Of a stretch of DNA of 64,000 nucleotides, positions 4,332-59,116 are shown piece after piece; the first letter of the stretch is position 1, and every line of letters begins with the position of its first letter. Both the position numbers and the translations under genes were made by a program. This stretch comes from an uncultured Bacilli bacterium. GTDB lineage: Bacteria; Bacillota_I; Bacilli_A; RFN20; CAG-826. The stretch is taken from contig CALVHN010000005.1 in assembly GCA_944327845.1 (NCBI GenBank), forward strand, positions 1-64,000, written 5' to 3'. The notes beneath the pieces were generated by a model that did not search any database, was not told where the DNA came from, and saw only the letters and a program-made list of their open reading frames with translations.

Positions 4332-7301
4332 ATGAATAAATTTGCGAAAGTTGTTCTCAATTTCGCTCTCATTGGAATTGTTACAGCCGGCATTGTTATT
4401 GGAAACAAGATCGCTTTTCAGTTCGAGAACGAAATAAACACACTTCTTGCTCCACCAATTGTTGATGAAGAAACAGTTGAAGCTTCTTCTCAACTTGGAC
4501 AAGATATGTCAAAACGTATTATGGAAGAAGGAGCAGTAATGCTTCAAAATAAGGATAATACCTTACCTTTAGATTATAATACTGATAAAAAAGTCAACGT
4601 TTTTGGTTGGGGATCGGTTGACTGGGTTTATGGAAGTGAAGGTTACAATGCTTCTGGAGGTGTAGCTCCTGAAGATGATGATTTTTCAAAGAATGTTGAT
4701 ATCTATAAAGCATTAAATAAATATGGAATTCAATATAATCAACGCTTATATGATATGTATTATCAATATCAAAAACCAAATCATCAATCAGCAAATTTAA
4801 AAGGTACACATATTTCAACAGTAACACCTTTAATTGATCCAAAAATTGATGATAAAAATTATTATAGTGATGAATTATTAAATTATTCAAAATCTTTCTC
4901 TGATACAGCGATAGTTGTTATTCGAAGAATGGCTGGAGAAGGAATGAACTGTAATCCAAGTGCTCAAGAAAAGAAAGGACCTGGATCGATGAATGATTAC
5001 ACTCGACATTATTTAGAAATTTCGACCGAAGAAGAAGCTTTACTTAAATATTGTGGAGAAAACTTTAAAAAAGTTATTGTTTTATTAAATGTTTCTAATC
5101 CATTTGAATGTGGATTCTTAGAAACTATTCCAGGAATTGATGCTGCATTTTATATCGGATTTACCGGAACAAGAGGCGTAGAAGCTTTACCAAAACTTTT
5201 ATATGGTGATGTATCTCCTTCTGGAAGACTTGCTGATATTTTCCCTTATGATGCTTTTACTAATCCAGCAAATGTCTTTTTAGGTGGATTAACTTATACA
5301 GATAATGGAACTTCCTATACAGATTTTGTTGAAAATATTTATGTTGGATATAAATGGTTTGAAACTGCAGATGTTGAAGGAATATGGAGCAATGTTAGCA
5401 ATAATTTTGGAACAGGATATGATGGAGTAGTTCAATATCCTTTTGGATATGGTGCATCATATAATGATTATTCTTGGAGAGTAAAAGAAATATCTTTAGC
5501 TCCAGGAAGTAGTGTTGATGATAATACTAAACTTTCAATTACAGTAAGTGTTACTAATAATGGTAATGTTCCAGGAAGAGATGTTGTTGAAGTATATTTA
5601 ACCGCTCCTTATACTGATGGCGAAATTGAAAAATCAGCAGTTTCTTTAATCGGTTTTAATAAAACTAATATTATTGAACCAAAAGCAACACAAGATGTTG
5701 TTGTTGAAATTGATTGTAGCGATTTTGCTTCTTATGATTGTTATGATAAGAATAATAATGATTTTAAAGGATATGAAATTGAAGCTGGTGAATATAGTTT
5801 AAAATTAATGACTGATTCTCATCATATTAAAGAAGTTGGCTATAATACTGAAACCATTCCAGGAGAATTTAAATATAAAGTTGACAAAGACATTCAAATA
5901 AAAACTGATAAAGTAACTGGAAAAGAAGTTAATAATAAATTTACTGGAGAAGATGCTCTTGATATGACTCCAATCGATGCAAATGATGGAGATTTTGTTG
6001 CTGATATTCCTTGGTTTACAAGAGAAAATTTCATGAAACCTGAGGATTTTGCATCGAATTATAAAAAAAGAGCAATAACTCCTTCAGCAGTTGATCAAAA
6101 CTATGATGCTGAAAGAGCTAAAGCTTGGGATAATGCTACAGTTGATGAATATGGTAACGAAATTGAAGTTGATAAAGTTACTTGGGGTGCTAACAATGGT
6201 TTATCTTTAACTACAGGTGGTGGTTCAATTAGTGAATTAGGAAGAAAATTAGGAGCAGATTATAATGATCCTGATTGGGAACCTTTATTAGATCAATTAG
6301 TAATTAGTGAAATAATTAATGTTATTAATAATTATTATGGTACAAAAGCAATGCCTTCAGTTGGAAAACCTGCTTTAGCAGATTATGATGGACCTGCACA
6401 AATTAAAGGCTTTGTTAGTGGACCTAGAGGAACAGGTTATCCAACAATGGTAGTTATAGCTCAAACTTGGAATCCAAATTTAGCTTATGAATTTGGTAAA
6501 GCATATGGTGATGATATGAAATCACTTGGTGTTAGTGGAGTTTGGGGATGGGCAATTGATACTCATCGTACATCTTTCTTTGGAAGAAATCATGAATCTC
6601 CTTCAGAAGATGCAACTTTAGCTGGAACTATTATTAAAAATGCAGTTAAAGGTGTTTCAACAAGAGGAAGATATACTTTCTTAAAACACTTTGCTTTATA
6701 TGGTTATAATGGAACTAATACTTGGGTAACTGAACAAGCTTTAAGAGAAAACTATCTTAGACCATTTAGAGAAGCAATTGTTGAAGGTGGAGCATTAGGT
6801 ATAATGACTACTTATCAAGGAGTTGGAGCAGAACACTCTGAAACAACATTTGCTTTATTACATGGTGTATTAAGAGATGAATGGGATTTTAAAGGCGCTA
6901 TTACTACCGATTATATCGGTAATAGAGCTTGGATCGATTCGTTACTTAGATGTGGTGGAAATTTAGGAATGGGTGTTTCTCTTGGTTCATTAAGTGGAGT
7001 CACTTATGATGAAAATTCTTCACCTCGTTTACAATATCGTTTAAGAGAAGCAATGCATCAATTGTTATATATGTGGTTACATGCTGACTATTATGAACAA
7101 CAATATTTATTAAACCCAGATAAAAATGATAATTTTATTTCATCTGTTTCAATTAATTCTTGGGTTTGGTGGAAACCAATGCTTTATTCAATTGATATCT
7201 TTGCTTTCATTTTACTTGGATTATGGGCAGTACTTGTAATTATTAGTGTTGCTTGGAAGAAGAGTGAAATCGAAGAAATTTTCCCAGGAGCAATATATTA
7301 A
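4332..7301 (+). CDS. Membrane-anchored GH3 beta-glucosidase, swapped domain order
   Basis: This is a glycoside hydrolase family 3 enzyme of 989 residues, expected to release terminal beta-linked sugars outside the cell. The alpha/beta sandwich domain comes first (EEGAVMLQNKDNTLPL, then GDVSPSGRLADIFP and YPFGYGASYNDYSW), next a fibronectin III-like domain (LSITVSVTNNGNVPGRDVVE), and last the TIM-barrel domain, with RNHESPSEDATLAG, KHFA (Lys785) and the presumed nucleophile Asp860 in TTDYIG. The usual GH3 order is barrel first; the reversed order is known from Ruminococcus albus and Butyrivibrio enzymes. A hydrophobic segment at each end (residues 5-27 and about 955-980) suggests two membrane anchors. 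It lies 30 bp upstream of, and probably in one operon with, the next gene. Confidence 0.88.
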   Translation: MNKFAKVVLNFALIGIVTAGIVIGNKIAFQFENEINTLLAPPIVDEETVEASSQLGQDMSKRIMEEGAVMLQNKDNTLPLDYNTDKKVNVFGWGSVDWVYGSEGYNASGGVAPEDDDFSKNVDIYKALNKYGIQYNQRLYDMYYQYQKPNHQSANLKGTHISTVTPLIDPKIDDKNYYSDELLNYSKSFSDTAIVVIRRMAGEGMNCNPSAQEKKGPGSMNDYTRHYLEISTEEEALLKYCGENFKKVIVLLNVSNPFECGFLETIPGIDAAFYIGFTGTRGVEALPKLLYGDVSPSGRLADIFPYDAFTNPANVFLGGLTYTDNGTSYTDFVENIYVGYKWFETADVEGIWSNVSNNFGTGYDGVVQYPFGYGASYNDYSWRVKEISLAPGSSVDDNTKLSITVSVTNNGNVPGRDVVEVYLTAPYTDGEIEKSAVSLIGFNKTNIIEPKATQDVVVEIDCSDFASYDCYDKNNNDFKGYEIEAGEYSLKLMTDSHHIKEVGYNTETIPGEFKYKVDKDIQIKTDKVTGKEVNNKFTGEDALDMTPIDANDGDFVADIPWFTRENFMKPEDFASNYKKRAITPSAVDQNYDAERAKAWDNATVDEYGNEIEVDKVTWGANNGLSLTTGGGSISELGRKLGADYNDPDWEPLLDQLVISEIINVINNYYGTKAMPSVGKPALADYDGPAQIKGFVSGPRGTGYPTMVVIAQTWNPNLAYEFGKAYGDDMKSLGVSGVWGWAIDTHRTSFFGRNHESPSEDATLAGTIIKNAVKGVSTRGRYTFLKHFALYGYNGTNTWVTEQALRENYLRPFREAIVEGGALGIMTTYQGVGAEHSETTFALLHGVLRDEWDFKGAITTDYIGNRAWIDSLLRCGGNLGMGVSLGSLSGVTYDENSSPRLQYRLREAMHQLLYMWLHADYYEQQYLLNPDKNDNFISSVSINSWVWWKPMLYSIDIFAFILLGLWAVLVIISVAWKKSEIEEIFPGAIY

Positions 7302-7331: not shown

Positions 7332-10300
7332 ATGAGTAGAAATAAATCAAGAAAGGCCGTAATGACATTATTAACAGTTGCTGCGATTATTGCTGGAATT
7401 GGAGCATCTGCTGGAATAATTGTTCCTTCTTATCTTGAATGGAAGGAATATTACGATAGGGCCGAAGAAGAAAAAGAATATCAAGAATATTTAAATAGTT
7501 TACCTTTAGAATTTTTAGGAATCTCTGCAGAACTTAGCGATTCTGTAAGTTATTTTGATAACGGAAAAGCAAATCCTCAACCAGAAGATTTTACCGTTAC
7601 CGCTCATTTTACTGAAAAAGGTAAAAACTTTGATGAAATTTTAATGGCTGCAGATTATTCAATTGATGTTCCTGATAATTTTGCTTTAGATGGTGGAACT
7701 ATTACTGTTTCTTATACTTATACTCCTGTTGTTGGAGAAAATGAAGATCCAAAGGATCCAATCACTAAAACAGCAAGTATTGAAATTAAACTAATTGATG
7801 TTATTCCTTCAAGTATTAGGGTTATTTCTGATCCTTATCGAATTTATTATCAAGAAGGTATGACTTTTGAAAAAGAAGGAATGGAAGTTGAAGTTATTTA
7901 TAATGATGGTTCAACTCGTATTTTAGATTTTAGTGAAATTAATGTTGATACAACTACTGCATTAACTACTGAAAATGAAACAATAAAAGTTGGTTATGAG
8001 TTAGGAGATATTTCTTTGTCTACTGATTTAGATATTAGCGTTGTTAAAGAAGCAGACTATGATGAAGGAAGTATTTTATCACTTGAAGTTACTGATTTTG
8101 ATTCAATTAATGAAGGTAGTATAGTTTCAGATTTAAAACTTAATGTTAGAGGTGAATTCACTAGTGGAAATAGAATAACGCTAAATGAAGATCAATATTC
8201 TGTTAGTGGAAATGTTGAAAGAGCAACATTTAATAAAAAATGTATCGTCACTGTTGCTTCAACTGAAAATGCAAATATTGTTACTAGATTTAGTATTAAA
8301 GTTATTAATGGTTTAGAAGCTGAAAATTCTTCAACTCCTGAATTAACTACAAAAACTGTAGATGGTTATAATTCTTCATTTAATGGTGATTTAGTAAGTG
8401 TAGGAAATGTTTCAGGAATTGAAGTTGATAAAGAAATAAGCTTAACATTTAATCTTAATTCTTCAACTTTAGCTAAACCTAAATTATATTTAAGAGCTTC
8501 AAACAGAAACTTTACTCGTGATGAAAATCAAAATTATGTTTCAAATGATTTATATCTTAAAGATGCAATGAAGATTGAAATTAATGGAAGAGAAGTTTTA
8601 GTTCCTAATGATCTTAAACTTAGTAAATATAAAACATTAAGTGCAAATGAATTTGATAAATATGTATTTGAAACAATTTTAATGCCTTCATTAGTATTAA
8701 ATAATGGCGATAATACAATTACTCTTACCTTTAATAAGGATGCAAAATTATTTATCGATTCTTTATATTTTGAAAATGGTGAAAATGCAACTTACATTTC
8801 TTCATCTAGTGATTTAATTGTTAATTCAGCAATGCAAAATCAAAATTCAGAAATGGTTGCTTCAACTGTTGTTGATTGGAATGTAATAGAGGGTTATGCT
8901 CATGGATTATGTACCGATGGAAGATATATTTACATGGTTCATACATCTTATTCGAATTCTTTAAGACCTGTTTGGGTTTCAAAAATTGATCCTGAAAATA
9001 ATGAAATTATTGCTACTTCTCAAAGAATGGAAGAAATAACAACAGAAGATTATGCTGGTATCTCTTATTATGATGGTAAGGTCATTTTATTAAAGAGCGA
9101 TGGAAAGATGCTTGCTGCAGATGTTGAAACATTTAGTAGTGAAACTGTCTTTACTGAATATAATGGATTAGTTTTTGAAGGAAGTGAAAATACTTTATTT
9201 AAAGATTTATTCTATTCTGAATCAAGAAAAGTTTATGCAACTTTATCTGGAAATACGATTTTACTTTTCAATGAAAATTTAGAACTTTCTAATACAATAA
9301 GTGTTCCTAATGATCTTGGAAATGTTAAAAGATTAACTGCAGATAATAATTATATTTATGTTTTATATTCTAGCAATGGATTATATGAACCTAATATAAA
9401 TATTTATGATTATGATGGTAATTTTGTCGGAAGAACAAGAATTCCAATAATTTTAGGTGATTTAAATACTCCATATCCAGAAAACTCTAGTGTTCAAGGT
9501 ATAGTTATGTATGGCGATGATTTATATGTAACTATTTCTAGATGGAATAAAAATGGCGTTAACTACGATGGATTTAAACTTCTTAAATTATCTGTTCCTG
9601 ATATAACCGATGATATTGAAGCTAAACTTAATTTTGGTGAATATTTAAATGCATGTACTGATGCAAGTGTTGAGCCAAAATTAACTGCTACTCCTTTATC
9701 AGGAGCTTATGGTCAAGTTGAGACTAATTTAAGCGGAACAATATATTCAATGGGTGTAGTTAGTGATGGAGAATATGTTTATTATGCAGTAAATGGTGGT
9801 GGTAATAGCAATGCTACAATAATAAAAACTACAATTTCAGGTGATTTTGTTACAAAGAGTGCAACATTTAGTTGTAATACTGCGGGTACTGCTGGAGATA
9901 ATGCAAGATTATTTATTAAAGATGGTAAGCTTTATATGATTGGCTATCCTGATATTTATTCAATTGACTTAGATAGGTTTGATAATAATTGTACTTTAAA
10001 TAAAGATGAAGAGATTGATTTAAGTGTCCCTTATGATAATCCATTTGCTGCTTATTATAACGATAATAAAAATCTTACCTTTATTTTAAGTAGATCTAAA
10101 AAGGTTTATCTAAAAAACAATGATGGTTCAAATAAAGAATTATTTACTCCAACTTATAGCGGAATGAATGCATCATCTTTATTTGGTGATGATAATTATT
10201 TATATGTTTCATATAGTGTAAATAGCCAAGGTGTCTTACCAATTGATGTTTATACTTATGAAGGGGTAAAAGTTAGAACCTTTACAATTAGCGGAATTAA

Positions 10301-10457
10301 TCTTGGTACAAACGATGCAGGAACAGGTAATGTAAACTATAATATTCAATGCGTTAATCAAGTTGATGGAAGATTATATGCTACAGTTACTACCTGGGAT
10401 GCAGGCAAGATGCAATTATATGTCTTCACTATCAATTTTGATAAGAGTGGACTATAA
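7332..10457 (+). CDS. Large anchored Ig-like/propeller-like surface protein
   Basis: The 1041-residue protein starts with an uncleaved-looking signal anchor (residues 9-31) and a charged coiled segment (WKEYYDRAEEEKEYQEYLN). At least one bacterial Ig-like module is visible at about residues 155-245 (YYQEGMTFEKEGMEVEVIYN, Big_3 style). The second half has repeated Tyr/Asp-rich blade-like units such as GRYIYMVHTSY, NNYIYVLYSSNG and DNYLYVSYSVN, which suggest a beta-propeller; this fold is inferred. No catalytic motif is recognised. The tight spacing behind the GH3 gene suggests a shared role in glycan binding or enzyme organisation at the cell surface. Confidence 0.65.
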   Translation: MSRNKSRKAVMTLLTVAAIIAGIGASAGIIVPSYLEWKEYYDRAEEEKEYQEYLNSLPLEFLGISAELSDSVSYFDNGKANPQPEDFTVTAHFTEKGKNFDEILMAADYSIDVPDNFALDGGTITVSYTYTPVVGENEDPKDPITKTASIEIKLIDVIPSSIRVISDPYRIYYQEGMTFEKEGMEVEVIYNDGSTRILDFSEINVDTTTALTTENETIKVGYELGDISLSTDLDISVVKEADYDEGSILSLEVTDFDSINEGSIVSDLKLNVRGEFTSGNRITLNEDQYSVSGNVERATFNKKCIVTVASTENANIVTRFSIKVINGLEAENSSTPELTTKTVDGYNSSFNGDLVSVGNVSGIEVDKEISLTFNLNSSTLAKPKLYLRASNRNFTRDENQNYVSNDLYLKDAMKIEINGREVLVPNDLKLSKYKTLSANEFDKYVFETILMPSLVLNNGDNTITLTFNKDAKLFIDSLYFENGENATYISSSSDLIVNSAMQNQNSEMVASTVVDWNVIEGYAHGLCTDGRYIYMVHTSYSNSLRPVWVSKIDPENNEIIATSQRMEEITTEDYAGISYYDGKVILLKSDGKMLAADVETFSSETVFTEYNGLVFEGSENTLFKDLFYSESRKVYATLSGNTILLFNENLELSNTISVPNDLGNVKRLTADNNYIYVLYSSNGLYEPNINIYDYDGNFVGRTRIPIILGDLNTPYPENSSVQGIVMYGDDLYVTISRWNKNGVNYDGFKLLKLSVPDITDDIEAKLNFGEYLNACTDASVEPKLTATPLSGAYGQVETNLSGTIYSMGVVSDGEYVYYAVNGGGNSNATIIKTTISGDFVTKSATFSCNTAGTAGDNARLFIKDGKLYMIGYPDIYSIDLDRFDNNCTLNKDEEIDLSVPYDNPFAAYYNDNKNLTFILSRSKKVYLKNNDGSNKELFTPTYSGMNASSLFGDDNYLYVSYSVNSQGVLPIDVYTYEGVKVRTFTISGINLGTNDAGTGNVNYNIQCVNQVDGRLYATVTTWDAGKMQLYVFTINFDKSGL

Positions 10458-11239: not shown

Positions 11240-12484
11240 TTATTTTTCTTTATCTATAATTTTTTTAAGTTCATCACCAATTTTTTTAATTATTCCACAA
11301 ACTAGTGCGTTACCCATCATAAAATATCTTCGTTTTGTGGTCATACCGGTGTTTGTCCAATTGTCAGGGAATTCGTTTAACCTTTCACATTCAACAGGTG
11401 ATAATAATCTTAATTTATTTTGATTTAAATCTCTTATTATATGAGTAGAACGATTTACTGTGCCTTCGGAGGTTAACATCGTTCTTCCTGGTAAATTTAA
11501 ATCATCAAAAGGAGCCATTGAACCTTCAGAATATGTATATTCAAAACCATTTTTATCGATTCTTTTAATTTTTTTACTTCCTCTTAAATATTTAAATTTT
11601 TCTATTTGCTCTTGGCTTAAAAAACAATATGTAGGAATGTTTTGAGTAAGAATTATTTGATTAAGAGCGGTTGGAGTTTCAAAAATTGGCGTTGTTTTAC
11701 ATGTATAAACTTTATTATTAATCATGTATCCAGATTTTTCAAATGCAGCTGAAAAATTATCAGAAAAAGAGACTAAATCTTCATAAGTATCAAGAGAAAT
11801 AACAGAAGGTTTATTTTCGTTTTTATTTATTGGGAAACATTTAGCAAAAATACCCTCATTGAATATAATTGATATTGCTGATTTAGATTTTGTCGCTTTA
11901 TAATAGTTTGTTTTTTTGCTATATGCAAATATATAAATCCTTCTTCTTCTTTGTGGATGACCATAATCTGCTGCATTTATTACTCTCCATTCAACTGCAT
12001 AACCGAGCTCATTAAAACATTTAAGCATGATTCCAAAGTCTCTTCCTCTTTGTTTAGATGGTGATTTTAATAGACGATCCACATTTTCTAAAAGAACAAA
12101 TGGAGGACGTTTAATTTTTAATATGTCCCTTATCTGCCACCATAAAACTCCTTTTTTTCCTTCAATGCCTTTTTCTTGAGATAAACTTCTTGCAACAGAA
12201 TAATCCTGGCAAGGAAAACCTCCACATAATAGAGTATGATTTGGAATAGAGGCTTTGCTGATTTGAGATATATCTGTATTTGAATTGTTTTTATGAGGGA
12301 AACGTGTGTTATAGCAATTAAATGCATCTTGAGATTTTGTGGAAGGTTCCCGTTGATTTGCCCATAAAAAAGACCAAGGCCCATTTTCAATAGCCTCGCC
12401 TTTTGAATTTATTGATTTTATGTTGTTTAAACCAACTCTAAAACCTCCAACCCCAGCAAATAATTCAACTACAGTTTTATTCAT
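11240..12484 (-). CDS. DNA (cytosine-5)-methyltransferase of an RM system
   Basis: The 414-residue C5 methylase transfers methyl from SAM to cytosine. The motifs appear in canonical order: I (ELFAGVGGF, residues 7-15), IV with the catalytic Cys92 (GGFPCQDYS), VI (ENVDRL, 133-138), VIII (QRRRRIYIF, 178-186), a variable target-recognition region, IX (RLLSPVECERLNEFPDNW) and X (MGNALVCGII). The early NQREPSTKSQDAFNCY block is typical of methylases paired with Sau3AI-like endonucleases. It is divergent from the endonuclease gene across 132 bp. The likely target is GATC, inferred only from the partner. The gene looks intact and should protect the chromosome even though its nuclease is broken. Confidence 0.93.
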   Translation of the reverse strand: MNKTVVELFAGVGGFRVGLNNIKSINSKGEAIENGPWSFLWANQREPSTKSQDAFNCYNTRFPHKNNSNTDISQISKASIPNHTLLCGGFPCQDYSVARSLSQEKGIEGKKGVLWWQIRDILKIKRPPFVLLENVDRLLKSPSKQRGRDFGIMLKCFNELGYAVEWRVINAADYGHPQRRRRIYIFAYSKKTNYYKATKSKSAISIIFNEGIFAKCFPINKNENKPSVISLDTYEDLVSFSDNFSAAFEKSGYMINNKVYTCKTTPIFETPTALNQIILTQNIPTYCFLSQEQIEKFKYLRGSKKIKRIDKNGFEYTYSEGSMAPFDDLNLPGRTMLTSEGTVNRSTHIIRDLNQNKLRLLSPVECERLNEFPDNWTNTGMTTKRRYFMMGNALVCGIIKKIGDELKKIIDKEK

Positions 12485-12616: not shown

Positions 12617-14010
12617 ATGAGTGTAGAAGCTTCTAATCTTTATAATAGCATTGAAGAAATTCTTGAAACGGCTAAAAAAGCAAACAATCATCGAATTGGA
12701 GAATTTAATATCCATAATCGAAGCTTAAATAAGAAAGCTAAAGGTTCGATTGGACAAATAGTTGAAGAAGGTATTTTTCATTATCCTGTTAATTCTAAAG
12801 CAGAAGCAGATTTTAAAAATCTTGGAGTTGAATTAAAGGTTACAGGATTAAAAAAATTGAAAAATAATAAGCTTGTGATGAAAGAAAGACTTGTTTTAAA
12901 TATAATAAATTATTTTGACGAGGCAAAAGTTGATTTTGAACATAGTTCATTTTGGGAAAAAATAAGCTTCTTTTAATAATGTTTTATCTTTATGACTATG
13001 ATTTAGAAGATGCAAATTATTTAATTTTAGATTCGGCTTTGCATAGTTTTTTCGAAAAAGATTTAGAAATAATTAAATCTGACTGGAATATAATTCATCA
13101 GAAAATACTTGAAGGTAAAGCTGATGAAATTTCTGAAAGTGACACAATGTATCTTGGAGCTTGTCCAAAAGGAGACGATTCATTATCAAATTATCGTGAG
13201 CAACCTTTCTCGAAAGTTAAAGCAAGGCAAAGAGCGTATTGCTTAAAATCTTCATATATGAATGCTTTCATAAATAAAATATTTGAGAATAAAACTTATG
13301 AAGAAATTGTTAGCTATAATGAAATTAAAGAAGATTCTTTTGAAAATATTATTAAGAAAAGGCTTTCAAGATATTTTGGGAAATCCGAAAGTGTTTTACT
13401 TAAAGAATTTAATGTAAGTAATAGATCAAATGCGAAATTTAATCTATTATGTGGAAAAATGCTTGGAATAAAAGGCCGAATTAATTCTTCTGACGAATTT
13501 GTTAAAGCGAATATTTGTTTAAAAACTATTAGATTAGAAGAAAATGGTGAAATTAAACAGCATATGTCTTTTCCTTATTTTTATTATAAGGAAATAGTCA
13601 ATCAAGAGTGGGAGGATAGTGATATTTATAAATTACTTTCATCCTCAAAATTTCTATTTGTAATTTTTCAAAAACGTAATTATGAATATGTTTTAGATAA
13701 GGTGGTTCTATGGAATATGCCATATAATGATTTAGAAAAATATGTTAAGCCTGTTTTTGAGAATACAAAAAAAGTAATTTCCGAAGGAAATATTGTACAA
13801 GATATTAAAAATGGAAAATTTAAAACGAACTTTTTAGGCTCTACATATAATAGAGTTTGTCACGTTAGACCTCATGATGGAAAAGGAATTAATAAAACAA
13901 AAAAAGGTTTTGAGCTGCCGGTTCAAGATAAACTTACTCATTTAACACGTTATACTAAACAGTGTTTTTGGCTTGATAGGAGTTATATTAAAAAAATAAT
14001 CTTAAAATAG
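12617..14010 (+). pseudogene. Sau3AI/MutH-type type II restriction endonuclease, frameshifted
   Basis: Two frames together encode one Sau3AI-like endonuclease. The first (12617-12976) is the N-terminal MutH-fold nuclease domain: KGSIGQIVEEGIF, then the catalytic Asp65 in ADF and Glu72/Lys74 in GVELKVT, then KERLVLNIINY and SSFWEK. The second (from about 12957) continues exactly where Sau3AI homologues do, KNKLLLIMFYLYDY, and contains the C-terminal domain (SESDTMYLGACPKG, QPFSKVKARQRAYCLKSSYM). The break is in the A6 run at 12957-12962; seven A's would give one 464-residue protein, close to Sau3AI's 489. Homologues cut at GATC. Alternatives are a phase-variable tract, slippage that restores some full-length product, or an assembly error. 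Confidence 0.85.
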
Positions 14011-14960: not shown

Positions 14961-15048
14961 TTTAAAATTTAGAAAATAATATTAAATAAATTCTAGTTAA
15001 TATTCGTTATTTTTAATATATCTTATTTATAAATAGGTATATAAAAAG

Positions 15049-15054
15049 TATAAT
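15049..15054 (+). promoter_or_regulatory. Consensus -10 element for the transporter-GH2 gene
   Basis: A perfect TATAAT sits 26 bp before the ATG at 15081. A weak -35 candidate (TTTATA, 15026-15031) lies 17 bp upstream. An AGAGGATA-type RBS follows. Confidence 0.5.
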
Positions 15055-15080
15055 TTAGTTAAATTTTAAGAGGATATCTT

Positions 15081-18000
15081 ATGACAGAAGTAAAAAAACA
15101 AAATAGTAAAGTAAGCTTAAGAATGTGGATTACTTTTATTTTAGTTGGTTTAATTGGACAATTTGCCTGGGCAATTGAAAATATGTATTTAAATTCATAT
15201 ATTACGTATTTAAATTTTACAGATGTTAATGGTGGTGGGTTCAATTATTCTTTAATGATTGCTTTAACTACAGCTTTTAGTGCAATTGTTGCTACATTAA
15301 CCACAATTTTTATGGGAAGTTTAACGGATAAAGTTAATAAAAGAAAAATCTTTATAAGTATTGGTTATATTGTTTGGGGTTTATCTACTGCATCTTTTGG
15401 ATTATTAAATGTTAATTCAAGTAGTTCATTATTTGCTTTATCTATGACCGCTCAATCAGCTGCAATAATGGTAATTGTTATTGATTGCATCATGACTTTT
15501 TTTGGTTCAACAAGTAATGATGCGGCTTTTTCAAGTTATGTAACTAAAAATACAACTAATCAAAATAGAGGAAAAGTTGAAGGAGTTTTATCGATTTTAC
15601 CTTTAATTGCAATGTTAATTATTTTTGTTGGTTTAAATGGATTAACTACTGAAGCTAGTGGATATCGATGGGATTTATTTTTTTATATTGTTGGTGGTTT
15701 GGTTTTAGTTGTTGGATTAATTTCTGTATTTTTAATTCCAAAAGAAAAAGAAGAAAAAAGTGATAATGAAGGTTATATAAGAATTTTAACTAATGGATTT
15801 AAAGTTCAAACAATCAAGGATAATAAATTATTATATTTAGTTTTAATTGCTTATTTTATATATGGTGTTGCAATTCAGGTTTATTTTCCATATTTAATGG
15901 TTTATGTTGAATATACTTGTAATATATCAAATACTGGAGAAGGTGGATTTTTAACTCCTTTTGCAATAGTTATGGCTATTGCTTTATTAATTGGATCTTT
16001 ATTATCTGTAATAATTGGATTTATTTCAGATAAGGTTAAAAAAGAAAAGATGATGATACCGGTTATTATCGTTTTAATTCTTGGTTTATTTTTAATGTTT
16101 TTTGCTCCATTAATTCAAAATGAAATATTAAGAATAATTTATACTTCATTTAGTGGACTTATTATGATTTTAGGTTATGTTTCTGTTCCTACTATTTTAA
16201 ATAGTATGGTTAAAGATAATATTCCTAAAGGTAAAGAAGGTTCATTTATGGGTGTTAGGATGCTTTTTGTTGTTGCCTTACCAATGTGTATTGGACCTTT
16301 TATTGGTGATGCTTTAAATGCTTGTTTAGGAAAAACTTATGAATCAAATTTTGGAGTTAGTTCATATATTCCTAGTGAATATGGCTATTTAGTAGCGATT
16401 TTAATTTTATTACTTAGTTTTATTCCTATTTTCTTTATTTTTAAAGAAATAAAAAAGAAGAAAATTAAGAATCAAGGTTATTTATATAATGATTTAAAAG
16501 AAATTAAAGAAGAAGAATTAGAATTTAATTTAGATTCTCATCCACGTCCTCAGTTAAGAAGAGATAATTTCTTATTATTAAATGGAGAATGGGATATAAA
16601 GATTAGTAAAGATATTAATTTACCAAGTGAATATTTAGATAGAGTTATTGTTCCTTATGCGATTGAATCTCCATTAAGTAAAGTTAATCATTTATTAGAA
16701 GTTGATGAATATATTTATTATCATAAAATCATTAAGATTCCGGATAATTTAATAAATGATCATATCTTTTTAAATTTTGAAGGTGTTGATCAAGTCGTTG
16801 ATATATATTTAAATAATAAATTTATTTTTACTCATATTGGCGGGTATACTCGTTTTAAGGTTGATCTTAAAGAATATTTAGATGTTGATAATAAGGTTGA
16901 AATTACTTTAAGAGTAAAAGATGTAAGTGATGATTCTTATTATATGGCTGGAAAACAAAGATTAGTTCCTTCTGGTTGGTTTTATTCTTCAAGCAGTGGT
17001 ATTTATAAACCTGTATATTTAGAATCAACTCCAAAAGAATTTATTGAATCGATAAAATATGAATCTTTATTTGATTTAAAGTCAATTAAAGTTTTTATTA
17101 AAACAAATGTTGATGGAATGGTTAATTTAATAATTGATAACGAATCTTATTTGATTCATTCAAATCAAGAAGAGATTATTCAATTAAAAGATTTTAAACC
17201 TTGGTCAATTGAATCTCCTTATTTATACCAAGTTAAATTAATATTTATGAGTGATATAGTTTATTCTTATTTTGGAGTAAGAAAGATTGAAATAAAAGGT
17301 GAAGCTAAAAAAGAAATATATTTAAATAATAAGCGTATTATTTTAAATGGTTTACTTGATCAAGGATATTATTATTTAGGAGGATTAACTCCTAAAAGTT
17401 ATGAGGATTATTATTTAGATATTAAAAATATTAAAGATTTAGGTTTTAATACTTTAAGAAAGCATATTAAAGTTGAATGTGATTTATACTATTATTTTGC
17501 TGATAAATTAGGGGTTTTAATTATCCAAGATATTCCTTGTGGAGGAGATAGAATTAAATTTTTAGATGTTGTTATTCCTCGAATATCATATAAATATTTA
17601 AATAATGAAAAGTTTTTAAGTTATAAAAAATATGGAAGATTGAATGAAGTAGGAAGAAATGAATTTATTAATGAAATGAATGAGATTATTGAAAATACGA
17701 CATCATTTCCTTCTGTTATTATTTATACAATTTTTAATGAAGCTTGGGGAGAATTTGATCCTTCAAAGATCTATTTAAATTTAAAGCCTAATTTAAAGAA
17801 TCAATTAATTGATACAGCTAGTGGATGGCTTGATACAGAAAATTCTGACTTTTTCTCAATTCATTCCTATACTTTACCTCTTTTAAAAAGAAAAGATCCT
17901 TTAAAGAAAAATAGGCCTTATATTTTAACTGAAGTTGGTGGAGCATCTTTAAAAATTAAGAACCATTACGATTATCCTTCTTTATTTGGTCATGGTAAAT

Positions 18001-18218
18001 GTAAAAGTAAAAAAGCTTTAGAGAAAAAATATATTAAGTTATATCAAGGTTTAATTAAAAGAATTAAAGATAATAATCTTAATGGAATTATTTATACAGA
18101 ATTAAATGATTGTGAAACTGAAGCTAATGGTATTTATACTTTAGATAGAAAGGTTTTAAAAATAGATAAAGATATTATTATTAAACTTAATAAAGAAATT
18201 GAAGATTCTATTAAATAA
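15081..18218 (+). CDS. Fusion of MFS/SLC45-like sugar transporter and GH2 glycosidase
   Basis: One 1045-residue frame joins two proteins. Residues 1 to about 470 form a 12-helix transporter: the start WITFILVGLIGQFAWAIEN is typical of SLC45-like MFS sugar carriers, and loops such as GSLTDKVNKRK and GFISDKVKKEK occur after helices 2 and 8. A charged linker follows (EIKKKKIKNQ, then KEIKEEELEF). Residues 487-1045 are glycoside hydrolase family 2: SHPRPQLRRDNFLLLNGEWD, sugar-binding and Ig domains, and a barrel with Asn886-Glu887 (acid/base, FNEAWGEFD) and the likely nucleophile Glu951 (LTEVGG). No stop, frameshift or internal start with an RBS separates the halves. The hydrolase should sit in the cytoplasm and split the sugar as it enters. 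Members of GH2 cleave beta-glucuronides, galactosides or mannosides; the substrate here is unknown. Confidence 0.88.
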   Translation: MTEVKKQNSKVSLRMWITFILVGLIGQFAWAIENMYLNSYITYLNFTDVNGGGFNYSLMIALTTAFSAIVATLTTIFMGSLTDKVNKRKIFISIGYIVWGLSTASFGLLNVNSSSSLFALSMTAQSAAIMVIVIDCIMTFFGSTSNDAAFSSYVTKNTTNQNRGKVEGVLSILPLIAMLIIFVGLNGLTTEASGYRWDLFFYIVGGLVLVVGLISVFLIPKEKEEKSDNEGYIRILTNGFKVQTIKDNKLLYLVLIAYFIYGVAIQVYFPYLMVYVEYTCNISNTGEGGFLTPFAIVMAIALLIGSLLSVIIGFISDKVKKEKMMIPVIIVLILGLFLMFFAPLIQNEILRIIYTSFSGLIMILGYVSVPTILNSMVKDNIPKGKEGSFMGVRMLFVVALPMCIGPFIGDALNACLGKTYESNFGVSSYIPSEYGYLVAILILLLSFIPIFFIFKEIKKKKIKNQGYLYNDLKEIKEEELEFNLDSHPRPQLRRDNFLLLNGEWDIKISKDINLPSEYLDRVIVPYAIESPLSKVNHLLEVDEYIYYHKIIKIPDNLINDHIFLNFEGVDQVVDIYLNNKFIFTHIGGYTRFKVDLKEYLDVDNKVEITLRVKDVSDDSYYMAGKQRLVPSGWFYSSSSGIYKPVYLESTPKEFIESIKYESLFDLKSIKVFIKTNVDGMVNLIIDNESYLIHSNQEEIIQLKDFKPWSIESPYLYQVKLIFMSDIVYSYFGVRKIEIKGEAKKEIYLNNKRIILNGLLDQGYYYLGGLTPKSYEDYYLDIKNIKDLGFNTLRKHIKVECDLYYYFADKLGVLIIQDIPCGGDRIKFLDVVIPRISYKYLNNEKFLSYKKYGRLNEVGRNEFINEMNEIIENTTSFPSVIIYTIFNEAWGEFDPSKIYLNLKPNLKNQLIDTASGWLDTENSDFFSIHSYTLPLLKRKDPLKKNRPYILTEVGGASLKIKNHYDYPSLFGHGKCKSKKALEKKYIKLYQGLIKRIKDNNLNGIIYTELNDCETEANGIYTLDRKVLKIDKDIIIKLNKEIEDSIK

Positions 18219-20805: not shown

Positions 20806-22713
20806 TTAATCGAATAAATCTGGATATGTTTCTTGGAAATATTCAAATACATCTTGGTCAAAGTATGTTAAGTAAGATTGATCAAGGAAGTATTCAATAG
20901 CTGAAGAAGTATAAGTATCTGAACTTGCAATTTCATAGCCAACTTCAAGGGCATATGATTCAATTTCTCTCATTTCTTCAGCAGTGGTACTTTCATCAGA
21001 AGTTGTTTTTGATGGAGTGATGTAATCATAAACAGCAATAATATAATATGTAGATTCATCATCATTGCTCCAAATGATACTATCATATTCATTCCATCTA
21101 TCGTATGTTGCTTTCTTTAAGAAAGTAACTCCACCAGGTTCAAATGATTTTAAATAAGTCCAATCAATAGCATTTGAAACGCTATTAGCTGAGTTTAATT
21201 CATTGACAATTGAAGCTGAGAATAATCTATCAGTAATTGAAGAAGGAAGAGAAGAGTAATCACTCTTTGTACCCCAACCGTAAGTTGTATAATCTTCAAT
21301 TCTTATTTGGTTAGTTCTAATTTCAAGTCCATCTTGTGGTGAATAAATACGATCATTAATATTTGTAAATGAATCATAATTTGTAGTGTTATTTGTTGAT
21401 GGATTATCTGTTAAAGTAGAATAATCTTTAATTAAATCTCCATAAACAGAATTTCTATAATAAGAATATCCATTATAAGCTGTACCATCGATATAAGTTA
21501 CAGGGTTTCCTGTATTTGGATTATTACCATCTTCATCAACAAGAACTTGTGTATTTTGCCAATCAGTTGTAATGTTTCCAAATGTATTTTGAGCTAAAGT
21601 TTTGGCTAAAGCATTTTCTTCAAGATCTAAATCTTCAGGAATTCCCATCCAAGCGGTACAAGCACTATCAAATGTAAAGTTTTCTTCATTTATAGTAGTT
21701 GAATCGCTATCAAGATAATTACTAGCAAAATTTCTTAAAAGTTGATATGCGTTATTTTGTGTATTGTTTTGAATTTGGACGTATTCAATTCTTCTTTGTT
21801 GAGTTCTACCAATAGCAGCATATTGATTTTGCATAATGTATAACTCAGTAAGAAGGTTATTAACAATAGTAGGAATAACTTGATTATTAATGTAAACAAC
21901 ATAGTGTTCTAAGTGAATTAAAGCATTGTCACCATCAATAATGTTGTTATAGTTCTTTTCAGGATCATAACTTGAATCAATGAAGACACCTTGTGTAAAT
22001 TCCCCGTCACTAGAAACTGTACTCTCAACTTGATAATCATTTTCTTTGAGTTGATTAATTTGATCGTTTACATAAGAGATACTTAATTCAGTAACACCAG
22101 ATTCAGTATTAACTGAATAAACTGGGTATAAGCTATCCATTAATGATTCAACATATAAAATTTCATAAAAACTACTATTATATTTATATGAATCATTGTT
22201 GATGTTGTTAAACATAGTGACAACAACTTGTTTTTTAATTAATTCTTTATACATGTTAATTCTAGTTGTATAAGAATCTAAATTTTCAAGTTTAATATCA
22301 TCTATATCTTCATATGTAATACGAATACCAGCATCTGTCCAATTCCAGTATGCTTGATGTGATTTGATGAATTCAATTTTTTCATCATCAGTTACAGTAG
22401 TTGTAGCATCACCAGTAGTGTATTTATAATCCCAATTTTCTAATAAGATATCACCGTTTTCATCGATTGTATAATTACCTAAGTAATTTTTTGCAACTTC
22501 ATTTGTTAATAAGGAAGCAACTTCGGAATTATAATTTTCATCATTATGAATGATATCAAATAAATCTTTTAATGTATTATTGTCAACTTGAACATTATTT
22601 GTATTAAAAGCAGGATCATTTGGATTTTTAATAGTAGCAACAGCTACATCACAAGATGATAACAATAATACTGATGCGGCTAAGACACTTAAAATTGCAT
22701 TTCTTTTTTTCAT
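20806..22713 (-). CDS. Large lipoprotein, partner of the parvulin-like protein
   Basis: The 635-residue protein has a lipoprotein signal peptide with lipobox LLSSC at about residue 21. The mature part is acidic and rich in Asn, Asp, Ser and Tyr, with helical segments but no motif I can assign. It follows the parvulin-like lipoprotein gene by 14 bp and shares its size class and leader style, so the two form an operon. It may be a diverged relative of SurA/PrsA N-terminal chaperone domains without the isomerase part; that is inference. Confidence 0.65.
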   Translation of the reverse strand: MKKRNAILSVLAASVLLLSSCDVAVATIKNPNDPAFNTNNVQVDNNTLKDLFDIIHNDENYNSEVASLLTNEVAKNYLGNYTIDENGDILLENWDYKYTTGDATTTVTDDEKIEFIKSHQAYWNWTDAGIRITYEDIDDIKLENLDSYTTRINMYKELIKKQVVVTMFNNINNDSYKYNSSFYEILYVESLMDSLYPVYSVNTESGVTELSISYVNDQINQLKENDYQVESTVSSDGEFTQGVFIDSSYDPEKNYNNIIDGDNALIHLEHYVVYINNQVIPTIVNNLLTELYIMQNQYAAIGRTQQRRIEYVQIQNNTQNNAYQLLRNFASNYLDSDSTTINEENFTFDSACTAWMGIPEDLDLEENALAKTLAQNTFGNITTDWQNTQVLVDEDGNNPNTGNPVTYIDGTAYNGYSYYRNSVYGDLIKDYSTLTDNPSTNNTTNYDSFTNINDRIYSPQDGLEIRTNQIRIEDYTTYGWGTKSDYSSLPSSITDRLFSASIVNELNSANSVSNAIDWTYLKSFEPGGVTFLKKATYDRWNEYDSIIWSNDDESTYYIIAVYDYITPSKTTSDESTTAEEMREIESYALEVGYEIASSDTYTSSAIEYFLDQSYLTYFDQDVFEYFQETYPDLFD

Positions 22714-22727
22714 ATTATCATCTCCTC

Positions 22728-24887
22728 TTAATTAGTAGTTCCTGTATCAGAACCACCAGTTTGATTTGCACTTGATGAATAGTAGCACATACTTCCTTCA
22801 GCATAGTATTTACTATCACCAAAATGAAGAGCACAAGTCTCTGGAATTAAGCCATTGTCTCTTTCTCTTTCTTGGTTGTTAATAGTATTGAAATAAGAAA
22901 GCCATGCATCATATAAAGTATCGCTAACGCCATTATTATATTGAAGGTTAGTATGTTCAATATATCTTTGAATTAAAGCGTCAACATCAGCATTATTTGA
23001 TTTAACACTGATTGTGATATTGCTTGCATCTTGTAACCAATTAGTAATAACAAATTCTTTGATACTTGCAGTTGAATTACCAGCGCTTGATTGGAAGTTT
23101 TCATATTTTTCTTTTAATAATGGATTAGCACTATCTCCAGATGAAATTATAGATTCATAACCTTCTTGGTTAGTTACAGTATCACCATAAACATAAGTAA
23201 TTTTTGGTGTACCATCAACTTCACCGTCATTATTTGTATCTACGCCAGGGAACTCAACATTGTAGTCTGGTATACGTTGTCCATTTTCATCAGTTGTATA
23301 ACCATTTGAAACAAGTGGATTAACTGGAGCAAAGTATTCAGCAAGAGAAACATCTCTTGGATCAACCTCGTCGTGTCTATTTTCTTTTTGAGTTTGAATT
23401 AAACCAGAACGTTCAACAACAATAAAGTGAATGCCTCCAGATGAAGTAGCATTTAATGTAACTAAAATAGGATTACCATTTTCATCACATAAAACTTTTT
23501 TAGGTGTTCCATCAATTGTTATTGATTTAAAGTTTTGAGTATTTAAACCTGAATAAGTGGTATTACTTGTAGAATATTTTCCATCAACAATATCACTATA
23601 ACCTGTTGTTCCATCTGTATAGGTAACTGTTCTTCCCATTGAACCATTGAAATCTTCAGGAGCATTAGCATATGAGACATCTTCATCAGTGATGAAGGCA
23701 ATATTATGTCTGTTGAAATATTTATTGAAAATAATATTTCTTGGATAATAAGCTGCATTTCCTTCATTAACGGTTTGGCCGTTATATGTTTCAATAGATC
23801 TTAAGTTATATAACTCTTGGAGTGCCCCATATGGGATAAATGATGCACCTAAATCTTGGATATAATTAGCAATTGAACCATCTTTAGTTGTTCCGTCTTC
23901 ATTATATCCTGGAATATTAAATAATGATTTATTGGAAGAATCATCGCTAGCTATTCTGTTATTGTATGCTTCTTTAGAAGCGTTGTTAGTTTTTGCAGGA
24001 TTTGTATCAGATGGCTCCATATTTAACAATGTTTCATATGCATAAACACCAAGTTTAAATTCGTTAACAAAACTTGTTGATGTATCCATAATATAACCAT
24101 TTGGATTTGAAGCAATTCCAGTATCATCTGACCAAATTTTAGCAGTAGAAGTAAATGTAGTTCCTTCAGAAGGATTTACATTAATTAATGCATTTACAAC
24201 GTTATATAATTTTTCAACATTATCAGCTGTTACTTCAGATCTTGTATAGTTGTCTTCACTTGATCCAATTTTTACAAGAATATGTTTAACATGATAAGGG
24301 ATACGTTGATTGATGTAGCCATTATCACCCCAAACAATATTATATTGTTGTTGTAATTCCCAATCTTCTGCTGTTGAATCTTGACGCCAATTATTAAAGA
24401 CTTCGTAGTATTGATCATCAACACGATCTTCCATATTTTCATATTGTCTATCTAACCAGTATTGATGTTCTTTTTCAGCTTCATCCATATTTGGATCGTC
24501 ATATCCGAGAGTATCAGTTAAATAATCTTCCCAACTTACATCACTTTCTTCTGCAGTATCTTGAGCTTCGATAATGTCGTTATCGGTTGTTCTATTAACT
24601 TCATTTAGATAATCATGCATTGCTCCGTTTTCATCGACAAAAGCTAATCTAATTTGAACTTCATACATTGCATCATAAAAAGCTTGAGCATGATTACTAG
24701 GATTTTGTTCAAGATATCTTTCAAAGATGTCATCTGCAGTAATTTGCTTAGTTTCTACATTTCCATCTGGATTTACATAATTGTATTCAATGATGTAGTT
24801 GTCTTGAGTGGTAACACCACAGCCAGCTAGAGAAACAAGACCCAATGCACATATTGCAAGAGACAAAGGTTTCTTAAATTTCTTCAT
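22728..24887 (-). CDS. PrsA-like foldase lipoprotein with parvulin-like domain
   Basis: The 719-residue protein is probably an extracellular foldase. The signal peptide ends in LAGC at about residue 23. The next block (KQITADDIFERYLEQNPSN, then FYDAMYEVQIRLAF) looks like the SurA/PrsA N-terminal region. A parvulin-like start follows, YHVKHILVK, with a helix, TTFTSTAKIWSDDTG and FVNEFKLG. The closing strand appears only about 200 residues later as GGIHFIVVERS, so the isomerase fold seems to carry a large insertion. Parvulins help fold exported proteins. It is the first gene of the operon. Confidence 0.7.
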   Translation of the reverse strand: MKKFKKPLSLAICALGLVSLAGCGVTTQDNYIIEYNYVNPDGNVETKQITADDIFERYLEQNPSNHAQAFYDAMYEVQIRLAFVDENGAMHDYLNEVNRTTDNDIIEAQDTAEESDVSWEDYLTDTLGYDDPNMDEAEKEHQYWLDRQYENMEDRVDDQYYEVFNNWRQDSTAEDWELQQQYNIVWGDNGYINQRIPYHVKHILVKIGSSEDNYTRSEVTADNVEKLYNVVNALINVNPSEGTTFTSTAKIWSDDTGIASNPNGYIMDTSTSFVNEFKLGVYAYETLLNMEPSDTNPAKTNNASKEAYNNRIASDDSSNKSLFNIPGYNEDGTTKDGSIANYIQDLGASFIPYGALQELYNLRSIETYNGQTVNEGNAAYYPRNIIFNKYFNRHNIAFITDEDVSYANAPEDFNGSMGRTVTYTDGTTGYSDIVDGKYSTSNTTYSGLNTQNFKSITIDGTPKKVLCDENGNPILVTLNATSSGGIHFIVVERSGLIQTQKENRHDEVDPRDVSLAEYFAPVNPLVSNGYTTDENGQRIPDYNVEFPGVDTNNDGEVDGTPKITYVYGDTVTNQEGYESIISSGDSANPLLKEKYENFQSSAGNSTASIKEFVITNWLQDASNITISVKSNNADVDALIQRYIEHTNLQYNNGVSDTLYDAWLSYFNTINNQERERDNGLIPETCALHFGDSKYYAEGSMCYYSSSANQTGGSDTGTTN

Positions 24888-56038: not shown

Positions 56039-59000
56039 TTAATTAGCTTTTCCAAAGTATTCATATAAGTCTGTTGGGTAATCTTCATCGCCATCAGTTT
56101 CACCCATGAAGTAAGTTGTAGTAACGACAGCTTCTGAACCTTCTTCAGCATCCCAACTGCTCATTTCGTATAAGATTCCTAATCTTGAGGTTTCAGGATC
56201 ATATAAGAAAGAGATTCGATCAGTTAATTGATTTTCTTCTAAAACTCTACCTTCAATTCTGCCATTAACAATTCTCCAATAGAAACCTTTACTTCCAGCA
56301 GAAGTTCTTAATGTTCCAGTGTGATAAGTTTCAGTTGTATCAGCATCTATTTGAACTTCTTCAGTTTCTTCATTAAATTGAGCGGTGTGAGATTGTAAAT
56401 CTGTATGAACATATTCGACAATTTGATCTTGTTCGCCTTGAATTTTCCATGTACCATACATACCTTCTTCTGTAAGAGCATATCCTTTAACAAAATAGAT
56501 ATATAATTCATCTTTCTTTGAACTTGTATCTGGATCCCAGTTATCAGAAGTAATAGTTAAAGTAACTTTTTCACTATCATCAGTTACATGATAATTTGTT
56601 GCATCGATTTCTAATAATTCAGTGTCAGGATCATAGCTAAATTTAACGTTTTCATTAGATGAAGTAAATACAAGTGAAGTATTATCAGCACCAAGTGGTG
56701 AGGCTTTTAATGTAACGTAGGATTTTTTACTATCATAAACATAGACATAACCTGCGCCAGATTCTTCTGTTTCAACTAAATCATCTGTATTACCAGTCAT
56801 GGTGGTATCAAAATAGACAGATCTAACTGGAGTTGAATCTACTGTAACATCAATGTCCTTAGTATGTTCATTTGTTGTTTGATTACCGACTGTAAGAGTA
56901 GAAGTACCATTTTTAAGTGCACGATATTCAGAATAATTACCTCTTCCAATAACATCTTCATTAGTACTATTAATAATTTCATATTGCCAAATATCTAAAG
57001 CTGTTGTTGGAGAATAATCAATATCAAAGTTATCACCTTTTACGATTCTGTCACCTTTTTTAAGAACATTTTTAGTGTCATCAGAATTAAAGATATCGTT
57101 ATTAATTGTTACTTTTGAAATATCTGAGATGAAATATTGAGACATATCCATTGAAGGCATTTGATCTAAAGTTTCAGAATATTCATAACTAAATTCTAAT
57201 GTTTTAACTAATGTTCCTCTATTTTCTCCACCTGGAAGGAATCCTTCTTTACCTGCGTCAAAGTTATAATCATTTTGGTTGTAGACTTTTTCTTGATAAG
57301 TTCCAGCTAGTAAGCTTCCATCAGAGGTAAATGATAATTCAACATCATATTCATAATGTTCATAAAGATTACTTGATGCATCAACTAAAGTCTTATAAGA
57401 ATCAATAGTTGTGGTAAATGTTGAATCTGCATTTGCTGTAGTTGAGATATCAATATTTGAAGATTGTAAGTAATCAGAAGCAAATCCAACACGATATGCA
57501 TACATAATATCAAATTCAATAGAATTCATATCATGAGAGTAGTGATTTGCATCAAATGTAGCTTCTCTTAAAGAAGTTTCAACTCCTCCCTTATCTGGGA
57601 AGTTTTTCCAATTAGATGCATCAGCTTCAGCTTGAGTATCAAATACTTTAATATTAGCTGATTTTGCTTCAGTATCATCTTTCTTAGTTGGATCATTATC
57701 ACCCTCAATATAGGTATCGACAAATTGATAATTATCATCTTCTAAAGATTTATAAACAATTGCTTGTTGAACGCCTTGTAAATTAGTAACAGTTGCATAT
57801 GATTTATTATCTTGATAACGAGTAAATTCATAATGTTCTTGAGTTAATGAATTCTCATATGTTACTTTTTTAACATTTTCAGGATAAGTAGTTTCACTAC
57901 TTTTACCATGGTCGAATAGATTCTCTAAAGTTGTTGTGCTATTTGGTAAAGTATCAACTGAAACCCTTTTAATGTAAGCTGGTCTTAATTCAGCAGAAGG
58001 ATCATAGTAAAAATCATATGTAAATCCACCAGGAAGTTCGAATGATGTATCATCATCTCTTGATGTTTCAATACTTGCAAAACATTTATAGAAATCAAGA
58101 TCTTGATATGTTAATTGAGTTGGTTCATCTGTATCTCCTAATAGAGTGGTCCAATAAGCAAAGCTTGAATCTTCATTTAATTGAATACCTTTTGCTTCAT
58201 AAAGTCCTGTTTCAGTATTTTTAACTAAAGGAATATAATCAGCACCAGTTAAGACAACTTCACTATCTGTTGTTAGCCAAGTTAATTTTGCACGAATTGT
58301 GACATCTCTATCTGGCATTGTAAATGAATATTGGTTGTTACCAGTAGAAGTAAGTGGAGTATTATTCATTGTTATTTCTTCAATAGAAACAAGGTTGATA
58401 TCTTTAACTTTAGCAGTGAAAGTTACTGTTGAACCAACAGTAGCAGAATCTGGTCCTTCAAAAGTAACGCTTGTTGCAGTAATGTAATTAATTTTATATG
58501 TTGCAGGAGCAATTTCGCCGCCTTCAACTGTGATATCAATATATCCTGGATTATATCCATCAAGTTCAGCACTGATTCTTGCTTTTCCTTCACCTAATCC
58601 AGTAACAACACCGGTATTTGTGACCATTGCAACAGAAGAATTATTTGAACTAAATGTAACATTATTTAAAGCTACGCCTTTATCATCTTTAGCAGTTAAT
58701 TGAACTCTTTCATTAACTTTAAGTGTAGTGACATTATTTTCTGCAGTTAAAGTAATTGATTGAGTAATACTTGGATCAACGACTGTTAAAGAAAAAGAAG
58801 CAGTTTCATATCCATTAAGTTCAGCGCTAATTACTGTACTTCCTACATTAATAGGAGTAACAGTACCAAGTTTAGAATCAATAACAGCAACAGCTGCATT
58901 TGAGCTTCTCCATGTAACTTCTAAAGTTTCTCCAGCACTATTTTTAGCAGTTAAAGTTAAAGTATCACCTAAATTTAATGTATCTTTACTTCCTTCAATA

Positions 59001-59116
59001 GTAATTAAGTTTTGTGTTTCTTCAGTTGTATTATTATCACAAGAAGTAAAAGCAAAAGCTCCAAGACTTAAAATACCCGTTAAAGCTAATACATTTAATA
59101 ATTTAATTTTCTTCAT
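56039..59116 (-). CDS. Large Big_2/InlB-repeat-like lipoprotein
   Basis: The 1025-residue protein has lipobox FTSC (about residue 26). Two Big_2 modules (about 37-112 and 116-198; VTWRSSNAAVAVID, VTFSSNNSSVAMVTNTGVVT) are followed by an InlB-repeat-like module ending YSFTMPDRDVTIRA. A long central domain, apparently duplicated or enlarged, ends at SMDMSQYFISDISKV. Ig-like segments follow, and last a C-terminal readout domain starting MYGTWKIQGEQDQ. It shares its module set with the genes at 49146 and 60490. It is probably a surface adhesin or glycan-binding protein; no catalytic motif is visible. Confidence 0.8.
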   Translation of the reverse strand: MKKIKLLNVLALTGILSLGAFAFTSCDNNTTEETQNLITIEGSKDTLNLGDTLTLTAKNSAGETLEVTWRSSNAAVAVIDSKLGTVTPINVGSTVISAELNGYETASFSLTVVDPSITQSITLTAENNVTTLKVNERVQLTAKDDKGVALNNVTFSSNNSSVAMVTNTGVVTGLGEGKARISAELDGYNPGYIDITVEGGEIAPATYKINYITATSVTFEGPDSATVGSTVTFTAKVKDINLVSIEEITMNNTPLTSTGNNQYSFTMPDRDVTIRAKLTWLTTDSEVVLTGADYIPLVKNTETGLYEAKGIQLNEDSSFAYWTTLLGDTDEPTQLTYQDLDFYKCFASIETSRDDDTSFELPGGFTYDFYYDPSAELRPAYIKRVSVDTLPNSTTTLENLFDHGKSSETTYPENVKKVTYENSLTQEHYEFTRYQDNKSYATVTNLQGVQQAIVYKSLEDDNYQFVDTYIEGDNDPTKKDDTEAKSANIKVFDTQAEADASNWKNFPDKGGVETSLREATFDANHYSHDMNSIEFDIMYAYRVGFASDYLQSSNIDISTTANADSTFTTTIDSYKTLVDASSNLYEHYEYDVELSFTSDGSLLAGTYQEKVYNQNDYNFDAGKEGFLPGGENRGTLVKTLEFSYEYSETLDQMPSMDMSQYFISDISKVTINNDIFNSDDTKNVLKKGDRIVKGDNFDIDYSPTTALDIWQYEIINSTNEDVIGRGNYSEYRALKNGTSTLTVGNQTTNEHTKDIDVTVDSTPVRSVYFDTTMTGNTDDLVETEESGAGYVYVYDSKKSYVTLKASPLGADNTSLVFTSSNENVKFSYDPDTELLEIDATNYHVTDDSEKVTLTITSDNWDPDTSSKKDELYIYFVKGYALTEEGMYGTWKIQGEQDQIVEYVHTDLQSHTAQFNEETEEVQIDADTTETYHTGTLRTSAGSKGFYWRIVNGRIEGRVLEENQLTDRISFLYDPETSRLGILYEMSSWDAEEGSEAVVTTTYFMGETDGDEDYPTDLYEYFGKAN

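Follow-up and report, generated by a model that had tools for sequence, protein, structure and literature searches.

A Sugar Carrier Fused to a Family 2 Glycosidase in an Uncultured Bacilli Bacterium: A Candidate Route for Galactofuranosides

The Fused Gene and Its Domains

The window, a stretch of 64,000 nucleotides with a GC content of 27%, contains a gene in which a carrier of the major facilitator superfamily (MFS) continues in frame into a glycosidase of glycoside hydrolase family 2 (GH2). The gene apparently stands outside any operon; it has no obvious operon partner, and recX and yhaM lie downstream. Its features and those of related genes are summarized in Table 1, where positions with an L number refer to loci in other genomes.

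Table 1. Positions of the fused gene, its parts, and DUF2804 genes of related loci
Feature	Position	Strand	Basis or remark
Fused gene, MFS carrier and GH2 glycosidase	15081..18218	+	One unbroken frame from ATG (15081) to stop (18218), 1045 aa
Promoter-like TTTATA-17-TATAAT 5' of fused gene	15026..15054	+	Inferred by consensus scan; score within shuffled background
Ribosome-binding-site-like GAGGA, 6 nt 5' of ATG	15070..15074	+	Read directly
MFS carrier half, residues 13-456, 12 transmembrane helices, N and C termini inside	15117..16448	+	MFS_1 4.9e-31, 12 hydrophobic segments, positive-inside 29:2, AlphaFold2 model and PDB matches
Charged cytoplasmic linker, residues 457-486	16449..16538	+	Holds N-x-G-Y-L motif; no in-frame start codon
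GH2 half, residues 487-1045, group III (furanosidase-like)	16539..18215	+	Profile, sequence and fold comparison
E887, acid/base, NE motif with N886	17739..17741	+	Aligned to NE of 9J6N and E464 of ORF1110; invariant in 64 halves
E951, nucleophile	17931..17933	+	Aligned to conserved Glu of 9J6N/7SF2; 63/64
T1006, loop-8 YT[EQ]L motif	18096..18098	+	0.98 conserved; aligned with ORF1110
MFS-DUF2804 fusions	L039:5841-8270, L040:2061-4508, L041:702-3149, L042:3044-5464, L043:2930-5341		
DUF2804 near GH2	L091:1795-5952, L158:2200-6366, L163:226-3006, L168:4019-6780, L101:9184-10218		

Pfam profiles place MFS_1 (PF07690) at residues 37-406 of the window protein, followed by Glyco_hydro_2_N at 503-651 (6.2e-16), Glyco_hydro_2_N2 at 543-611 (2.2e-8), and Glyco_hydro_2_C at 743-1023 (1.6e-5), all above cut-off; the middle Glyco_hydro_2 domain falls slightly below it (21.9 versus 23 bits). 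The sugar-binding, sandwich, and TIM-barrel domains of the family are thereby represented, the middle one at this slightly sub-cut-off score, along with the acid/base and nucleophile glutamates. A preliminary description of this DNA had reported a 12-helix MFS carrier that passes through a charged linker into a complete GH2 enzyme, and these domains and the 12 hydrophobic segments bear it out.

Lysine and arginine residues number 29 on the inside loops between these segments against 2 on the outside loops, so both ends of the MFS half, and with them the linker and the entire GH2 half, are cytoplasmic, the side on which the linker and enzyme had been expected. AlphaFold2 models of middling confidence (mean pLDDT about 70) match MFS folds in the PDB for the carrier half (Z up to 34.8 over 372 residues) and resemble GH2 enzymes for the other. 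The label "SLC45-like" originally attached to the carrier is unsupported: the window protein matches MFS_1 alone, with no Pfam or NCBIfam match to the SLC45-like (GPH-type) subfamily, a weak MFS_2 match occurs in one relative only (L018), and the fold search leads to the general MFS fold. SLC45-type carriers are not among the fold matches listed, which excludes nothing; the best of these matches include exporters and are general to the MFS, not diagnostic of a subfamily. No solved sequence matches the carrier half; it has no characterised near relative, and the fold does not reveal its substrate.

Elsewhere in the window, a GH3 protein (4332-7301) has a swapped order, with the C-terminal GH3 domain (69-340) and an Fn3-like domain before the N-terminal barrel (690-863). 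A Sau3AI-type restriction enzyme gene (12617-14010) occupies two overlapping frames (12617-12976 and 12952-14010), is apparently frameshifted, and adjoins a C5 cytosine methylase (11240-12484). Large frames at 7332-10457, 20806-22713, 22728-24887, 56039-59116, and 60475-63774 have no NCBIfam match, and the first three also have no Pfam match.

Fused and Split Forms among Relatives

An intact copy of this fusion occurs in each of 24 species-level genomes drawn from five families (f1, f2, f5, f22, and f29), at identities to the window protein down to 35%. Full-length open frames from four family codes account for 23 of these, one of which (G127), close to the start of a contig, lacks part of its N-terminal side; the twenty-fourth (G643, the fifth family) was found with the distant G365 member as query. 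Across five close fused pairs, whole-gene dN/dS ranges from 0.058 to 0.16 and is about equal in the two halves; the fused gene is under purifying selection in both. That carrier and glycosidase form one polypeptide, as first proposed, is confirmed by the single open frame and its repetition. The preliminary description had allowed for a stop lost by error at the junction, and for homologues that always encode the halves as separate genes; neither is what the genomes contain, since 24 carry an open junction. Loss of a stop through faulty assembly or sequencing is ruled out by the presence of the fusion in 24 separate genomes of five families; nothing was found in its favour, and its probability is negligible. 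Also rejected is an internal translation start that would yield a separate enzyme: an in-frame start with a ribosome-site-like sequence before it was found in none of 23 fused junctions.

We found no description of a transporter-glycosidase fusion in the open-access literature, in keeping with the original impression that the architecture was new. The closest named contigs belong to uncultured Bacilli or Mollicutes, and a roe deer omasum is the source of one, so a "gut" habitat for the whole group is partly presumed.

Most other relatives have neighbouring, overlapping genes instead of a fusion. In 31 split loci the halves are adjacent, on the same strand, and in the order seen in the fusion. 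In 28 of them the start of the GH2 gene, read in the +1 frame, falls within the final part of the MFS gene, with overlaps mostly of 8-29 nt and an AGGAG-like sequence commonly within the MFS coding end; the overlap is 4 nt in the remaining three. This near-constant +1 frame (e.g., L047:3901-3911 and L055:4097-4113) is partly inherited. The N-x-G-Y-L motif forms the N-terminus of the stand-alone GH2 protein and lies in the linker of main-clade fused proteins. At three loci (L051:4011-5422, L059:1812-3103, and L162:2961-4258) the MFS gene is in two frames and the GH2 gene is intact, reflecting decay or sequencing error.

Trees force at least six changes between the fused and split states for the GH2 half, at least seven for the MFS half, and at least six for both joined, minimum counts that rest on starred branches. 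Grouping all fused proteins as one clade is rejected by the AU test (p = 1.9e-5), which rules out a single origin of the fusion. Ten fused genomes fall in two clades that have no split member inside.

The partnership of carrier and enzyme is real and old, and the covalent link is optional: near relatives are split and the state has changed at least six times, so the link is not needed, and the halves work together whether in one chain or two. Repeated switching counts against a strict requirement for the link and hints that joining the halves brings little by itself. These relatives with two overlapping genes speak against the "vectorial" mechanism first envisaged, which needs a covalent link; the related suggestion that fusion keeps the product from competitors also loses its force, since a separate cytoplasmic enzyme would do equally well. 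A further step would be to regard the fusion as an accident of overlapping genes, close to neutral, in which the halves cooperate and the single chain has no consequence. We take this seriously, at somewhat less than even odds: the two forms are intermingled on the tree and split pairs are one indel away from fusion, but the fused state persists in the deep clades above, no fused gene retains a usable internal start, and a second domain, DUF2804, is likewise fused to related carriers. The question here is the meaning of the link, and such an accident would be compatible with the substrate and route proposed below.

Enzyme Group and Gene Context

Both catalytic glutamates lie at the residues originally given, 887 and 951, and are near-invariant across 64 GH2 halves, fused and split; the preceding N886 shares the invariance of E887. 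A 2025 division of GH2 assigns 9J6M (GH2_18) and 7XYR (GH2_19) to group III, in which the known activities are directed at furanosides and a loop-8 Trp is replaced by Thr (PMC12243196). The closest solved sequences to the GH2 half are 7SF2 (7e-70) and then 9J6N/9J6M (1e-54), and 9J6M comes first in the fold search (E 3.5e-31); 9J6M/9J6N and 7XYR rank among the first four sequence matches and the first seven fold matches. By sequence and modelled fold, the half is thus placed with the furanosidase group (group III) and not with the glucuronidases. T1006, which aligns with ORF1110, is a candidate for the marker Trp-to-Thr change. The Streptomyces enzyme ORF1110, whose acid/base is E464 (PMC11084152), is specific for galactofuranose (Galf), cleaving beta-D-Galf and being inactive on alpha-L-arabinofuranosides (Araf) and pNP-beta-Galp (PMC4560423). 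Identity of the window half to solved enzymes is only about 26-28%, so its specificity may have shifted. A counterpoint to Galf as substrate is that this enzyme is cytoplasmic, whereas about 80% of GH2_18 enzymes are secreted (PMC12243196).

Galactose genes recur beside the pair. At three split loci, galactokinase adjoins it (L067 and L069) or is one gene off (L099). The pair in L068 and L099, and GH2 in L097, have an aldose epimerase of galM type as a neighbour. UDP-galactopyranose mutase immediately follows the pair in L074 and is two genes off in L069, and in L164 the GH2 relative ends a LacI-GalT-GalK-GH2 run. These neighbours occur at a minority of loci, partly in related genomes, and none is beside the fused gene itself; in the window's genome, galK, galT, and galM are together on another contig. 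Within the genus, galK is present in 26 of 26 genomes and the arabinose isomerase gene araA in none. Together, neighbours and gene counts favour galactose as the product. The mutase was detected in 17 of the 26, including the window's genome, so synthesis of Galf by the organism itself is not a condition for the fusion.

Substrates other than galactofuranosides fare less well. The protein could be an alpha-L-arabinofuranosidase, or a mixed Araf/Galf enzyme, with a carrier importing arabinofuranosides from plant fibre; both activities occur in group III, and a ruminant-stomach genome is among the relatives. Arabinose isomerase, missing throughout the genus, turned up in 5 of 14 control genomes, though, and the neighbours are galactose genes, and we consider the arabinofuranoside alternative unlikely. 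Beta-glucuronides, beta-galactosides, and beta-mannosides, the substrates first suggested, are probably wrong given the grouping with GH2 furanosidases, and a glucuronide, galactopyranoside, or mannoside system seems to us very unlikely. The best NCBIfam match is indeed a beta-glucuronidase model (9.5e-29), but it scores 100 bits against a cut-off of 544 and stops at residue 898, the NxK glucuronidase motif is absent from loop 8 (residues 1000-1030), and the nearest solved enzymes are of group III; we reject a GH2 beta-glucuronidase on account of the sub-cut-off match and the missing motif. A different purpose is conceivable for the same substrate, namely salvage instead of feeding, with the protein recovering Galf-glycosides that the cell has lost from surface glycans of its own. 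The distribution of the mutase, present in the window's genome and adjoining one pair, is in line with salvage, but six fused genomes of the genus (G002, G010, G013, G017, G023, and G025) have no detected mutase, and we regard this purpose as quite unlikely.

DUF2804 (PF10974), an uncharacterised domain (PMC8151288), is fused to the C-terminus of an MFS carrier in five related genomes, in proteins of about 803-815 aa. As a stand-alone gene it lies between MFS and GH2 (L091 and L158), directly 5' of GH2 (L163 and L168), or near the fusion (L101). Common operons and a common type of fusion partner suggest that DUF2804 would act in the same pathway as the carrier and GH2. We tentatively envisage a dedicated system for Galf-glycosides, in which a carrier subfamily has repeatedly been fused either to a GH2 galactofuranosidase or to DUF2804, the latter perhaps a second, undescribed enzyme of galactofuranoside breakdown; we hold this with less confidence than the route proposed below. 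An apparent triple fusion, an open frame of 1390 aa in G431 and G625, is an artefact, the DNA there encoding three neighbouring genes (MFS-DUF2804-GH2). UDP-galactopyranose mutase is found beside DUF2804 or one gene from it at L118:3413-5552, L119:4055-6196, L120:3625-7463, and L121:3734-7569; this may reflect conserved local order and not function, as the Nudix neighbour persists without the mutase in other genus members.

Proposed Role and Known Systems

Galactofuranose is made by many microbes and fungi and not by animals. We propose, with a probability of roughly 0.6, that one protein imports small beta-D-galactofuranosides and cleaves them in the cytoplasm, with Leloir catabolism to follow. 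Architecture, topology, recurrence, selection, catalytic residues, nearest enzyme group, and galactose-gene neighbourhood were computed; Galf as the substrate, transport direction, ion coupling, and the benefit of the fusion are what we infer. No description of an importer for galactofuranosides was found in the open-access literature.

The MFS half would bring in a small glycoside, most likely a beta-D-galactofuranoside, and the GH2 half, tethered to the inner face of the membrane by the linker of about 30 residues, would take off the terminal Galf by a retaining two-glutamate mechanism. The freed galactose would ring-open, convert to the pyranose form, and enter the Leloir pathway through the products of galK, galT, and galM elsewhere in the genome. 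Hydrolysis would keep the cytoplasmic glycoside low and so favour net import, as with any cytoplasmic hydrolase; fixed 1:1 amounts and membrane anchoring are what the fusion would add. The fusions probably arose repeatedly from the overlapping pair: the enzyme's start, in the +1 frame, lies within the last part of the carrier gene, so one small indel can join the genes.

Natural fused and separate versions of one carrier-enzyme pair make the effect of a tether on uptake directly testable. Should galactofuranose prove to be the substrate, a nutrient route of small-genome gut Bacilli would come to light, and DUF2804 would gain a candidate function.

Close counterparts include the split MFS-GH2 pairs of related Bacilli, which have the same two families, adjacent and in the same order, and differ in being two overlapping genes with the enzyme in the +1 frame. 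The MFS-DUF2804 fusions (L039-L043) share a related carrier with an extra C-terminal domain, but the partner is not GH2. Among characterised enzymes, the ORF1110 beta-D-galactofuranosidase of Streptomyces sp. JHA19 (GH2_18; 9J6M/9J6N) is the best fold match and resembles the window protein in its GH2 fold, both catalytic glutamates, and loop-8 YT; it differs in its length of 786 aa, its AbfB domain (PMC4560423), its lack of a transporter, and an identity of about 26%. The Bacteroides cellulosilyticus GH2 protein 7SF2, the closest solved sequence, spans the full GH2 half but is a stand-alone enzyme, a putative beta-galactosidase according to its PDB title. Carrier-glycosidase operons of the LacY/LacZ kind also combine import with cytoplasmic hydrolysis, but their polypeptides are separate and their substrates are pyranosides. 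SulP-carbonic anhydrase and LplT-Aas are precedents for a transporter fused to an enzyme that uses its substrate; they differ from the protein described here in transporter family or enzyme, and their enzymes are not glycosidases.
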